Source: Alphaproteobacteria bacterium (GTDB lineage: Bacteria > Pseudomonadota > Alphaproteobacteria > Sphingomonadales > Sphingomonadaceae). From it: a stretch of DNA of 52,276 nucleotides. The position numbers and the translations under genes are program-made. How positions within the stretch are numbered: the first letter of the stretch is position 1; each line of letters begins with the position of its first letter. Where the stretch lies: contig JAFAZW010000003.1 in NCBI GenBank assembly GCA_019239415.1, positions 1 to 52,276 on the forward strand. Direction: 5' to 3'. Below, one piece after another: positions 47,501 to 52,233 of the stretch. Under the pieces are notes generated by a model. The model had not been told where the DNA came from. It ran no database searches and saw only the letters and a program-made list of their open reading frames with translations.

Positions 47501-50500
47501 ATGAACGAAGAGCAGAGCCTCACCCCGAGCCCCGCCGACGCCGACGGGGCGGCCGTGGCGCTCGGCGAAGACAGCCGCGTTCCCGCCGCCGACGGCAGCA
47601 TCGTCGAGCCGTCGATCGCGCCGATCCCGGCCCTGCGCCCGGAGGAACCCTACGCGCGCGACGAACTGCTGCACGAGCTGTTCGACGAGAAGGCGCAGCA
47701 ATTCGCCGACCGCTGCGCGCTGCGGCTGGTCGGTTTCGGCGCCGAATATGACCGGCGCACCAGCCTGACTTACGCCGAGCTGCGCGAGCGCAGCCTGCGC
47801 CTCGCCCACCAGCTGCGGACGATGGGGATCGCTCGCGGGGACCGGGTCCTCATCTGCCTGCCGCGCGGCCTCGATCAATATATGGCGATCCTCGGCATCC
47901 TCTGGTCCGGCGCCACCTACGTGCCGGTCGATTGGGCCTATCCCCAGGACCGCATCGACTTCATCGCCGAGGATTGCGGCGCCAGGCTCATCCTTACCTT
48001 CCACGAGCGCGCCGGCGAGATGGCGATCGACACCCTGGTGCTCGACGACGCGCTCGGCGACGTCGCCGCCGAGAGCGCGGCCCCGCTGACTCGCGACGAG
48101 ACCGGCGCGACCCCGGCGGACATCGCCTACATCATCTATACGTCGGGCACGACGGGTCGCCCGAAGGGCGTGATGATCCGCCATTCCAACGCCTGCCACC
48201 TCGTCCGCTCCGAAAGCGCCGTCATCGCGCTGCAACCGGCCGACATCTGTTACGGCGGCTTCAGCCTCGCTTTCGACATGTCGGTCGAGACGATGTGGAC
48301 CGCCTGGTTCGTCGGCGCCGTGGTGCTCGTCGCCTCCGACTCGCTGACCAAGGCGGGCCCGGACATCGCCCCGTCGCTCGAGGAGGAAGGCGTGACCGTC
48401 TGGCACGTCGTCCCGTCGCTCCTGACGCTCGTCGAGCACGCCATGCCGTCGCTGCGGATCCTGAACCTCGGGGGGGAGGCCTGCCCGCCCGATCTCGTCG
48501 CGCGCTGGGCGCGGCCCGGCCTCACCATCTACAACACCTACGGGCCGACCGAGACGACCGTGACGGCGACCTGGACCGAGGTGCAACCCGGGCGCCGCAT
48601 CACCATCGGCCGCCCGATCCCCGGCTACACGGCGTGGATCGTCGACGAGAAGCTCCAGCCCGTCCCCGCCGGCGCGGAGGGAGAGCTCGTGCTGGGCGGC
48701 CCCGGCGTCGGCGCCGGCTACGTCAACCGACCCGAGCTCACCGCCGAGAAGTTCGTGATGACTCCCTTCAACGGGCCGTCCGGCGCGCCGGAGCCGATCT
48801 ACCGGTCCGGCGACCTCGTCCGGCTCGACTCGGCAGGCGAGATCGATTTCATCGGCCGCATCGACACCCAGGTGAAGATCCGCGGCTTCCGCGTCGAGCT
48901 CGCCGAGATCGAGGCCGTCATCGCCGAGGACGCCGCGGTCGCGCAGGCGGTCGTGCAGCTGTTCAAGGATGAGGACGGCTCCGAATTCCTCGCCGCCTTC
49001 CTCGTCGCCGCCAAGGGCGCCGCGATCGACCTCGACCGGGTCCGCCGGACGGTGGCGGACCGCCTGCCCAATTATATGCGCCCGGCCGCCTACGAGCGGC
49101 TCGACCGGCTGCCGACGCTTGCCGCCTCGGGCAAGGTCGACCGCAAGGCGCTGCAGCGGCCGGCGGCCCGCGAGGCGGCGGAGCGGGAGATCGTCCCGCC
49201 GGCGACCGAGATGGAGGCGAAGCTCCATGCGGTCTGGGCGGAAGGCTTCGCGCCGCAGCCCGTCTCGGTGCTCGACAATCTGTTCGAGGATCTCGGCGGC
49301 CACAGCCTGAAGGCAGCGCGGCTGGTTTCCGCCGCCCGCAAGGTGCCGGGGCTCGAAGGCCTGTCGATCGACGACGTCTACTCGGCGCCGACCATCCGTG
49401 CGCTCGCCGCGCGCCTCGGCGATGCCGGCCCCGCCGAGCGGCTGGACGAGACGAGCTTCCACCACACCGCCGCGTGGAAGAGGTGGCTGTGCGGCTTCGC
49501 GCAGACCGTCGCGCTGATTCCGATCTTCACCGTCGCCGGCGCCCAGTGGTTCTTCCCCTACCTCGCTTATTCCTGGCTCGCGGGCTATATGAGCCGGCTC
49601 GACGCGCTGCTGATGAGCGGCCTTTCCTTCCTCCTCATTCCGCCCGCCGCGATGCTGCTGTCGATCGCGGTGAAGTGGCTGGTGATCGGCCGCTACCGCG
49701 CCGGCGCCTACCCGCTCTGGGGGTCCTATTATTTCCGGTGGTGGTTCGTCCGCCGCTTCTCGGACGTCATCGCCACGCCCTATCTCGCCGGCACGCCGAT
49801 GATCCGCAGCTACTACCGGATGCTCGGCGCGAAGGTCGGCGACCGCGCCCACATCGGCAGCTCGATCATCGACGCGCCGGACCTCGTCACGGTCGGCGAG
49901 GACGCGATCATCAGCGATTATGCGCTGCTCGCCACCAGCTCAGTCGAGCGCGGCCTCCTCCATCTGGGCAGCGCCGATATCGGCGACCGGGCTTGGCTCG
50001 GCGCGATGTGTGTCATGGGCCGCGACTCGCGCATCGAGGCGGATGCGGTGCTCGAGGACCTCTCCGCCCTCTCGGCCAGCGCCACCATCCCCGCGGGCGA
50101 GCGGTGGAGCGGGTCCCCGGCGCAGCCGCGCGGCCCCGCGCCGGAGCGCGAGCCGCGGCCCGAAGTGACGCGGCTCAAGCGGTCGCTGGTGACGATCGGC
50201 CTGGCCGTCGCCGCTTTCCTGCTGCCGCTCTTCGCCATCCTGCCCATCGCGCCCGGCATCATCGCCATCATCGAGATCGACTGGTCGACCGCCGGCTACC
50301 GCTACCTGCTGCTCGAGCCGCTGCTCGCCGCCACCTACGTGTTCCTGATGTGCGTGCTGACGGTCGCGGCGAAGCGCCTGCTGCTCGGCCGCGTGCGGCC
50401 GGGCCGCTACCCGAAGGCGAGCTGGTTCTACATACGCTATTGGTTCCTGCAGCAGATCAACGACATGGCGCTGCGCTTCGTCCACCCGATCTACGCGACC

Positions 50501-51583
50501 CTGTTCGTCGGGCCCTGGTATCGCGCCCTCGGGGTCAAGGTGGGACGGCGCGCGGAGATCTCCACGGCCGCCGCGATCGTCCCCGATCTGGTCGAGATCG
50601 GTCCCGAAAGCTTCATCGCCGACGCGGTGCTGTTCGGCGCCGCGAAGGTCGAGCCCGGCGCCATCCGGCTCGAGCGCACCAGCATCGGCCGGCGCACCTT
50701 CATCGGCAATTCGGCGCTGCTGCCCGCGGGCACCCATGTCGGCGACGAGGTGCTGATCGGCGTCCTCTCCAGGCCGCCGGAGGAGGACAAGACGAAGATG
50801 GCGACGGGGACGACCTGGTTCGGCTCGCCCGCCATCTGCCTGCCCGTCCGCCAGAGCGTCGGCCTGTTCGACGAGGGCGCGCGCTTCAACCCGTCGAAGC
50901 GGCTTGTGACGACGCGGCTCGTCATCGAGAGCATCCGCGCCATCCTCTCGCTCACCATCTTCCTCTCTTTTTTCAGCCTGATGCTGTCCGTCGTCGGCGA
51001 CATCTCCGACGAGGAGCAGGGCTGGCTCGCGATCGTCGCCGCTTTCCCTGTCCTGTATGTCGCCTTCTGTGCGGCCTGCGGCCTCTCGGTCGCGGCGATC
51101 AAATGGATCGTCGTCGGCCGCTACAAGCCGACCACGGCGCCGCTGTGGAGCATCTTCGTGTGGCGCTCCGAGCTGGTCACCGCCACCTACGAGAACCTCG
51201 CGGTGCCGAACCTGCTCGAGCCGCTGCGGGGCACCTTCTGGCTTCCGGCTTACCTGCGCCTGCTCGGCTGCCGGATCGGCAAGCGCTGCTATATCGACAC
51301 GACCGACATCACCGAGCACGACCTCGTCGAGATCGGCGACGACGTCGCCATCAACGACCTCGCCGGCCTCCAGACCCATCTGTTCGAGGACCGGGTGATG
51401 AAGGTGAGCGGCGTGGCGGTGAAGGACCGCGCGACGATCGGCTCGCTCGCCATCGTTCTCTACGACGCCGAGATCGGCGAGGACGCCCAGCTCGGCGACC
51501 TGTCGGTGGTGATGAAGGGCGAGTCCCTCCCGGCGGGAACCTCCTGGGAGGGGTCGCCCGCGAAGCTGGCAAGGAACGGCTGA
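47501..51583 (+). CDS. Pls/PosA-type nonribosomal peptide synthetase (A-T plus three membrane/LbH units)
   Basis: This 1360-residue membrane-bound synthetase has an adenylation domain at about 60-550 (A3 YIIYTSGTTGRPKGVMI about 209, A5 NTYGPTETTVTATW, A7-A8 YRSGDLVRLDSAGEIDF then GRIDTQVKIRGFRVELAEIE, A10 Lys in SGKVDRKAL), a carrier domain with NLFEDLGGHSLKAAR (Ser about 602), and then a thrice-repeated C-terminal unit. Each unit has two membrane spans (about 663-730, 893-963, 1141-1203) followed by a left-handed beta-helix of hexapeptide-like turns (about 780-870, 1013-1110, 1256-1357). There is no condensation or thioesterase domain. This is the architecture of epsilon-poly-lysine synthetase Pls and the TIGR02353 group. 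The gene is coupled to a PPTase. The substrate is unproven; Asp and Glu at the 235/239 pocket positions favour a basic amino acid. Confidence 0.9.
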   Translation: MNEEQSLTPSPADADGAAVALGEDSRVPAADGSIVEPSIAPIPALRPEEPYARDELLHELFDEKAQQFADRCALRLVGFGAEYDRRTSLTYAELRERSLRLAHQLRTMGIARGDRVLICLPRGLDQYMAILGILWSGATYVPVDWAYPQDRIDFIAEDCGARLILTFHERAGEMAIDTLVLDDALGDVAAESAAPLTRDETGATPADIAYIIYTSGTTGRPKGVMIRHSNACHLVRSESAVIALQPADICYGGFSLAFDMSVETMWTAWFVGAVVLVASDSLTKAGPDIAPSLEEEGVTVWHVVPSLLTLVEHAMPSLRILNLGGEACPPDLVARWARPGLTIYNTYGPTETTVTATWTEVQPGRRITIGRPIPGYTAWIVDEKLQPVPAGAEGELVLGGPGVGAGYVNRPELTAEKFVMTPFNGPSGAPEPIYRSGDLVRLDSAGEIDFIGRIDTQVKIRGFRVELAEIEAVIAEDAAVAQAVVQLFKDEDGSEFLAAFLVAAKGAAIDLDRVRRTVADRLPNYMRPAAYERLDRLPTLAASGKVDRKALQRPAAREAAEREIVPPATEMEAKLHAVWAEGFAPQPVSVLDNLFEDLGGHSLKAARLVSAARKVPGLEGLSIDDVYSAPTIRALAARLGDAGPAERLDETSFHHTAAWKRWLCGFAQTVALIPIFTVAGAQWFFPYLAYSWLAGYMSRLDALLMSGLSFLLIPPAAMLLSIAVKWLVIGRYRAGAYPLWGSYYFRWWFVRRFSDVIATPYLAGTPMIRSYYRMLGAKVGDRAHIGSSIIDAPDLVTVGEDAIISDYALLATSSVERGLLHLGSADIGDRAWLGAMCVMGRDSRIEADAVLEDLSALSASATIPAGERWSGSPAQPRGPAPEREPRPEVTRLKRSLVTIGLAVAAFLLPLFAILPIAPGIIAIIEIDWSTAGYRYLLLEPLLAATYVFLMCVLTVAAKRLLLGRVRPGRYPKASWFYIRYWFLQQINDMALRFVHPIYATLFVGPWYRALGVKVGRRAEISTAAAIVPDLVEIGPESFIADAVLFGAAKVEPGAIRLERTSIGRRTFIGNSALLPAGTHVGDEVLIGVLSRPPEEDKTKMATGTTWFGSPAICLPVRQSVGLFDEGARFNPSKRLVTTRLVIESIRAILSLTIFLSFFSLMLSVVGDISDEEQGWLAIVAAFPVLYVAFCAACGLSVAAIKWIVVGRYKPTTAPLWSIFVWRSELVTATYENLAVPNLLEPLRGTFWLPAYLRLLGCRIGKRCYIDTTDITEHDLVEIGDDVAINDLAGLQTHLFEDRVMKVSGVAVKDRATIGSLAIVLYDAEIGEDAQLGDLSVVMKGESLPAGTSWEGSPAKLARNG

Positions 51584-52233
51584 CGGAGCCGCGGTGGCAC
51601 GAAGGGCCGCTGTCGGCCCTACCGGCTGGGCCGCGCGCTTGCGTGGTCTGGAGCGTCCGGCTCGACAGCGAGGCTGCTGCCGCCGCGCTGGCGCGCACGC
51701 CCCACCAGGGCCGCGACCTCGCCGATTTCGCCGCGGCGCCGGACGCCGCCAGCCGGCTGCTGCGCCGACGTCTCACCCGCGCGCTTCTCGCGCATCTCGA
51801 CGGCGTCGCGTCGGAGGCGATCCTCTTCGGCCGCACGTCCGAGGGCGCGCCCTCGGTGCTGTCTCCGCCGGGGTGGCACATGAGCGTCGCCGGCCGGTGG
51901 CCGAACGTGCTGGTCGGCTTCGCCGAGGTCCCCCTCGGCGTCGACGTCGAACCGCTGGACGACGCGCCGCCGCTCTGGGACATGCTGACCTCCGCCGAGG
52001 CGGCCGCGGTCGAATCGCTGCCCGTCGGTGAGCGGCCCGCCGAATGGCTGCGTCGCTGGGCGGCGAAGGAAGCGCACGCCAAGCGGCTCGGCTTTGCCCG
52101 CCGGGCGGAGCCGGTCGCCGTCGCGACGGCGCCTCGCCCGTTCGGTTTCGACGTCACGTCGGCGCAAGGCGGCTCGCGCGTGTTCGTGCGGGACGCGAGC
52201 CGACGCGTCGAGGCCGTCGCGCTCCCGGTCTAG
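51580..52233 (+). CDS. 4'-phosphopantetheinyl transferase, Sfp type
   Basis: This protein of about 217 residues should load phosphopantetheine onto the carrier domain of the upstream synthetase. Core signatures: LGVDVEPLDDAPPLWDMLTS (the Mg2+-binding G-x-D-x-E, about 126-145) and EWLRRWAAKEAHAKRLGFAR (the W-x-x-KEA motif, about 160-180), and HMSVAGRWPNVLVGF, the SHT/VG-type segment. No ATG fits. The frame overlaps the synthetase stop as CTGA (CTG at 51580, AAGGA 5 bases earlier); a GTG at 51643 is the alternative start and would give 196 residues. Family and pairing are clear, the start is not. Confidence 0.88.
   Translation: MTEPRWHEGPLSALPAGPRACVVWSVRLDSEAAAAALARTPHQGRDLADFAAAPDAASRLLRRRLTRALLAHLDGVASEAILFGRTSEGAPSVLSPPGWHMSVAGRWPNVLVGFAEVPLGVDVEPLDDAPPLWDMLTSAEAAAVESLPVGERPAEWLRRWAAKEAHAKRLGFARRAEPVAVATAPRPFGFDVTSAQGGSRVFVRDASRRVEAVALPV

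Follow-up and report, generated by a model that had tools for sequence, protein, structure and literature searches.

What can be expected as the product of a synthetase that carries one adenylation domain, one carrier domain and a large membrane domain, and that overlaps the gene of its own phosphopantetheinyl transferase (PPTase)? This question is raised by a locus of an Alphaproteobacteria bacterium from the Sphingomonadaceae (GCA_019239415.1, contig JAFAZW010000003.1), for which we analysed a stretch of 52,276 nucleotides, hereafter called the window (G000:C94:1-52276 in our genome set). Its synthetase frame (47501-51583, + strand) starts with ATG and encodes 1360 amino acids. The following features were assigned to the two genes:

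47501..51583, + strand: single-module synthetase of the Pls/PosA family, built as A - T - triplicated membrane/beta-helix domain, 1360 aa (TIGR02353, 797.4 bits)
47768..48955, + strand: amino-acid adenylation domain, residues 90-485 (TIGR01733, 433.4 bits)
48275..48565, + strand: pocket stretch D259-T355 with nine of the ten code residues, DMEHNGTVT; K549 is the tenth (alignment)
49244..49417, + strand: carrier (thiolation) domain, residues 582-639 (PF00550, 29.4 bits)
49481..50140, + strand: C-terminal unit 1, two spans and beta-helix repeats (bounds set by eye)
50156..50860, + strand: C-terminal unit 2, contains D1041 and N1070 (bounds set by eye)
50891..51580, + strand: C-terminal unit 3, contains QTHLFEDRxMK with H1293 at 51377-51379 (bounds set by eye)
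51580..52233, + strand: 4'-phosphopantetheinyl transferase (PF01648, 29.9 bits); overlap CTGA; inferred CTG start, alternative GTG 51643

The first-pass annotation had proposed a Pls/PosA-like synthetase for an uncharacterised polymer. Regarding the enzyme family, the TIGR02353 search agreed with this proposal, since residues 667-1354 matched the NCBIfam profile "Pls/PosA family NRPS" with 797.4 bits at a cut-off of 423.1. Pfam recognized AMP-binding, AMP-binding_C, PP-binding and hexapeptide repeats in the synthetase, while condensation and thioesterase families were absent from the Pfam matches with E values up to 0.001. Hydropathy revealed six spans arranged as three pairs (about 663-681/711-729, 896-914/937-965 and 1140-1165/1176-1194), and the three C-terminal units are mutual repeats (unit 3 versus unit 1 E 1.2e-31, versus unit 2 E 1.1e-17, two-sequence search), which are predicted to form left-handed beta-helices from their hexapeptide-repeat matches. 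Both hallmarks of Pls/PosA enzymes were found, i.e. a single A and a single carrier domain without classical C or TE domain, and three tandem units with paired spans and beta-helix repeats (hydropathy, internal repeats, hexapeptide matches). The layout described before, including the PPTase that overlaps the stop codon as CTGA, was likewise recovered by Pfam, NCBIfam, hydropathy and repeat search. Judged by its sequence, the synthetase is a member of the Pls/PosA family, and the window system is a new member of a known family, not a new kind of system. The phosphopantetheine serine of the carrier domain is taken to be S602 in GGHSL, according to its motif position. The GC content of the synthetase gene (0.698, GC3 0.932) is close to that of four neighbouring genes (0.683-0.748 and 0.867-0.916, respectively). 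The gene ending 114 bases upstream of its start was read by eye and presumably encodes a Kup-type potassium transporter.

The adjoining PPTase was also borne out, as frame 51580-52233 passed the PF01648 gathering score, just above the cut-off of 25 bits. It scored 17.5 bits with TIGR00556, which is under the cut-off of 45.35, and found Sfp in the PDB only at E 0.14. The CTGA overlap with the synthetase implies CTG as start codon there, which is unusual; the first usual start codon that follows in frame is GTG at 51643. At the same overlap, the 28 related loci L038-L065 show ATG in 10, GTG in 7, CTG in 6, TTG in 3 and other codons in 2 cases, counts that include false PPTase frames reading through stops (L042, L054, L057) and loci apparently without PPTase at this place (L058, L062, L063). 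The peptide following the overlap reads TEPRWHEGPL in the window, TPLWHDGPL in L051, WHHGAL in L050 and NEPRW in L041, which also has CTG. Because the overlap codon is ATG or GTG in several relatives and the Trp-containing N-terminus before 51643 recurs among them, the PPTase likely starts at the CTG, with GTG 51643 as fallback.

By blastp clustering, the PPTase stands beside the synthetase in 18 of the 28 loci. This count was used instead of an iterated PPTase profile, which did not converge (25, 46, 47, 50 and 65 hits) and drifted into alternate frames; when seven ORFs were searched with Pfam, ACPS was found in L045, L050, L059, L068 and L117, cytochrome c in L063 and no match in L067. A larger gene cluster was considered and rejected, since the only neighbours shared among the Sphingomonas-type loci of this set are the PPTase (18 loci) and its antisense frame (5). 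The other neighbour clusters of at least four of the 28 loci belong to Caulobacterales, plus one stray member from L048. In the Caulobacterales loci L058 and L063 (pocket DVEANGTGSK), a cytochrome c-type gene instead of a PPTase adjoins the synthetase (clustering for L058, Pfam for L063). In L068, L074, L080, L086, L117 and further Verrucomicrobia/Bacteroidota loci, a PPTase-like gene, confirmed by Pfam in L068 and L117 only, is not found downstream but is encoded on the other strand, close to where the synthetase begins. The window genome holds two further PF01648 genes, one at most 1.6 kb from an adenylation domain on contig C78 and none on C41. The region G000:C78:11041-18455 combines two over-cut-off amino-acid adenylation domains with a PF01648 match and is apparently an NRPS locus.

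The substrate has to be read from the adenylation pocket. The code DMEHNGTVTK reported before proved to be exact (D259, M260, E263, H302, N322, G324, T346, V354, T355 and K549), and D259 and E263 at code positions 1 and 3 are in line with the accompanying view that the pocket suits a side-chain amine. In phmmer comparisons, the pocket stretch aligned without gaps to the PosA chains 8G95/8G97 (55 of 107 residues identical), and Pls chain 7WEW ranked after PosA (53 of 106 columns). When the whole protein was searched against the PDB, linear gramicidin synthetase with its two adenylation domains came out on top (582 bits), the PosA core was 12th (294 bits) and Pls was lower (265 bits). The Acinetobacter baumannii record L175 equals the PosA chain letter for letter across the 107 residues of the pocket stretch and has D at 217. 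According to the PosA study (PMC10522769), Asp217 holds the alpha-amine of the substrate, while Glu221, Thr304 and Ser313 hold the delta-amine. Met218 sets the chain length; Ala is found there in Lys enzymes and Pls, and Phe in poly-Dap/Dab enzymes. The exchange S313A resulted in a 183-fold loss (PMC10522769). The window protein shares D, M, E, H, N, G, T and V of the pocket with PosA, and the sole change among the pocket positions of the aligned stretch is Ser313 to Thr355. Hence, four of the five substrate contacts D217, M218, E221, T304 and S313 are identical, and S313 is Thr. The Pls pocket reads DAESIGTVV compared to DMEHNGTVT in the window, with Ala versus Met at the chain-length position. 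L-ornithine is therefore the best single substrate prediction for the window synthetase. As its pocket is that of PosA except for Ser313 to Thr, the likeliest product would be delta-poly-L-ornithine, a polymer that is already known. An uncharacterised monomer as main reading was rejected on the same grounds, so that the uncharacterised polymer of the first-pass annotation gives way to one that has been described.

How widespread this pocket is was examined in a scan of species genomes, which used a two-sequence C-terminal alignment and the two peptide patterns YYFRWWF and KWLVIGRY, and from which the best 80 of 249 relatives, biased to near kin, were evaluated. The exact code DMEHNGTVTK occurs in 23 of these 80 loci (20 alphaproteobacterial, 3 Bacteroidota), and the 20 alphaproteobacterial cases all fall among the 28 loci L038-L065. 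Other codes are DMEHNGSVTK (26) and DMEHNGSVSK (10), the remainder being found a few times each. Codes starting with DMEHN carry Thr at position 9 in 49 of 60 loci and Ser in 11. The pocket was incomplete in five of the 80 loci (L041, L072, L077, L078, L082), and A, N, R, D or I at position 10 in some rows was taken as misalignment near the A10 loop. In the quick trees described below, the DMEHNG(T/S)V(T/S) pocket recurs in three separate clades. Caulobacterales within the window clade have differing pockets, e.g. DVEANGTGSK, and the substrate therefore drifts inside the clade.

Regarding condensation, it has been proposed that the three beta-helices together build a single domain of roughly threefold symmetry (PMC10522769). 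We compared 125 C-terminal rows, 120 of them distinct. Eight residues, namely Q668, K725, R746, D1041, N1070, R1139, T1245 and Q1291, do not vary among the 120 distinct rows. At H1293, His is present in all 119 distinct sequences that have a residue there, and every other column reaches at most 63% His. The position equivalent to H1293 is mostly N or T in unit 1 and mostly E or A in unit 2, without a common histidine. H1293 is kept in PosA, in the Streptomyces Pls and in the second copy of this genome (P0002, see below), while K725, E1296, K1301, Y1321 and K1339 are unvaried in the set but replaced in the Streptomyces Pls. From this conservation, we infer that only one of the three sites may be catalytic and that it would be centred on H1293.

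We favour the reading that the two genes together are a minimal cassette which makes a cationic homopolymer, namely a short delta-poly-L-ornithine of the PosA type, and we assign a probability of about 70% to this reading. In the proposed mechanism, the PPTase would load phosphopantetheine onto S602, the A domain would adenylate L-ornithine and then charge the carrier with it, and the membrane-bound triplicated domain would repeatedly form a bond between the alpha-carboxyl of carrier-bound ornithine and the delta-amine of a further ornithine, to give short delta-poly-L-ornithine as with PosA. The weakest step is the use of one condensation site, built by unit 3 around H1293 together with D1041 and N1070 of unit 2. 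The C-terminal domain would then represent a fused pseudo-trimer, in which one of three sites has been kept.

It speaks against ornithine that the Ser313-to-Thr change falls on a contact residue. Further points against the favoured reading are the position of PosA outside the window clade, the differing pockets of Caulobacterales inside it, and the rank of PosA and Pls below linear gramicidin synthetase in the whole-protein PDB search. The same family and mechanism could act on another diamino monomer, i.e. 2,4-diaminobutyrate, lysine or a mixture, and with residue 313 different from PosA, the Thr would narrow the pocket and point to 2,4-diaminobutyrate; the variation of pockets inside the window clade fits this possibility as well. 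Nevertheless, we regard it as rather unlikely, since the chain-length Met points to ornithine, this place being occupied by Ala in Lys enzymes and by Phe in Dap/Dab enzymes (PMC10522769), and Thr at position 9 is the usual residue with the DMEHN pocket among the best 80 of 249 relatives. A free secreted polymer would not arise at all if the amino acid, as single residue or as chain, was passed to an acceptor in the membrane or envelope. The C-terminal hexapeptide repeats, as in beta-helix acyltransferases, and the membrane spans are compatible with such a transfer, and an exporter or peptidase gene was not evident in the neighbour clusters that four or more of the 28 flanks have in common (blastp E 1e-25). 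However, the in vitro products of PosA, which has the same domain order, are free oligomers with 7-12 units (PMC10522769), which makes the transfer to an acceptor improbable.

A decayed or non-amino-acid enzyme, composed of an acyl-CoA-like ligase and a plain acetyltransferase, is hardly credible. Nothing was found in its favour: acyl-CoA ligase families stayed far under their cut-offs, the frame is intact, the features of A domain, carrier and TIGR02353 are present, and the Asp and Glu of the pocket are kept. The domain profiles contradict it together with the PosA pocket alignment, as the A domain is of the amino-acid adenylation kind and not of the acyl-CoA or aryl ligase kind, and the C-terminal region belongs to TIGR02353 instead of a plain acetyltransferase family. 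The refuting conditions named in the first-pass annotation thus did not overturn its family assignment.

Delta-poly-L-ornithine synthesis as favoured reading leads to the question of how the gene is distributed. The 28 loci L038-L065, from which the fragment L069 was excluded as 29th alphaproteobacterial locus, show 54-72% identity to the window protein and are patchily spread in Sphingomonas, Novosphingobium, Caulobacter and Agrobacterium. Over-cut-off TIGR02353 matches were obtained in 2 of 118 relatives' genomes, namely the window's own and G065, and in none of 25 other same-genus genomes, five of which are less than 90% complete. The TIGR02353 matches in most relatives were rejected as ordinary hexapeptide transferases, because, among the matches listed, all except those of the window gene, of its paralogue and of the gene in G065 stay below 45 bits and mostly cover 50-185 of the 695 model positions. 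In a control set of 14 named genomes, 13 gave a match and 1 was over the cut-off. With the paralogue as query (E 1e-100), family members turned up in 14 of the 396 genomes from the order, in 10 of 385 from the class sample and in 27 of 398 from the phylum sample; these counts include the own genome, and the samples overlap. The C-terminal sequence of the same-family genome G646 is the same as that of the Novosphingobium rosa locus L050.

Two quick trees were calculated with SH-aLRT support only and midpoint root, and they gave warnings for long branches and for odd composition in several rows including PosA. The window protein shares a clade (SH-aLRT 100) with Sphingomonas, Caulobacter, Agrobacterium and an Acetobacteraceae MAG. 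PosA lies in another clade together with three phylum-level relatives that have the pocket DMEHNGTVSK, and this group is joined next by the DLED-pocket clade. An orthologue of PosA was therefore rejected, the two clades being separate and not sisters, and the pocket that they share was either inherited from a common ancestor or acquired by convergence. Gene transfer of the window-type synthetase is plausible because its distribution is patchy and a near relative, likewise overlapped by a PPTase gene, is plasmid-borne in Sphingomonas. The sister of the PosA clade in the tree is an alphaproteobacterial group (L120-L122, L126, L143-L148, L150, L152, L155) with the pocket DLED(I/L)G(T/S)VV, near to which is a code from rhizobia and Methylobacterium that stands without assigned substrate in PMC10522769.

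The genome contains a second copy, the paralogue P0002 (G000:C41:61400-65389, equal to L005 7398-11390 on the minus strand), with an ORF of 1330 residues, 36% identity to the window protein and 364.7 bits for TIGR02353, which is below the cut-off. It adjoins genes that we take, by eye, to be sucC and etf-type genes. Its pocket is DSECYGGVTK. For Bdello_A, which has this pocket, the four known diamino substrates were not favoured and modest activity with L-arginine was reported (PMC10522769). Relatives of P0002 with 62-68% identity occur in eight other same-family genomes, and DSECYGGVT is present in all nine copies found; one of the eight, G738, also has a window-type copy, and the match of its DSECYGGVT copy contains one TGA. 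Judging from these pockets, P0002 appears to be a better lead than the window gene for finding an undescribed polymer. As a tentative extension, which we would not yet rely on, the strain might make two cationic homopolymers, delta-poly-L-ornithine from the window and an undescribed one from P0002 as representative of a distinct sphingomonad subfamily, and a single-histidine condensation site in a fused beta-helix pseudo-trimer might be used family-wide.

With the window, a probable cationic-polymer pathway of only two genes is placed in environmental sphingomonads. The statement that such polymers are little described in sphingomonads stands for the open-access literature, in which we found no earlier report; it does not stand for the genes, which many named sphingomonads carry, one of them annotated as Pls/PosA family. 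The PosA polymer may act as an antifungal (PMC10522769). Same-genus strains without the gene provide a comparison, and a handful of unvaried residues can now be named for the unsolved condensation chemistry of the family.

Among the named systems, PosA from Acinetobacter baumannii (PDB 8G95-8G98) has the same domain order and C-terminal domain as the window protein (PMC10522769). In record L175, it shows 37% identity over 1334 aligned columns (855 bits), and none of the four other features that an incomplete gene table lists between about 1.3 kb upstream and 4 kb downstream of the gene is a PPTase, whereas the window has one. The epsilon-poly-L-lysine synthetase Pls (7WEW; Streptomyces locus L174) shares the domain order, the pocket Asp and Glu and the third-unit histidine with the window. 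The Streptomyces gene annotated as pls is 34% identical over 1291 columns (525 bits) and is followed by an M1 metallopeptidase gene, not by a PPTase as in the window. Bdello_A from Bdellovibrionales matches the paralogue P0002 in its pocket, not the window gene (PMC10522769). Sphingomonas parapaucimobilis YK209 carries on plasmid NZ_CP155753.1 a synthetase of the same clade as the window, with 68% identity and a PPTase overlapping its end. That gene pair, already annotated as Pls/PosA family and PPTase, differs from the window in being plasmid-borne and in having a GNAT gene and then an S8 peptidase downstream.
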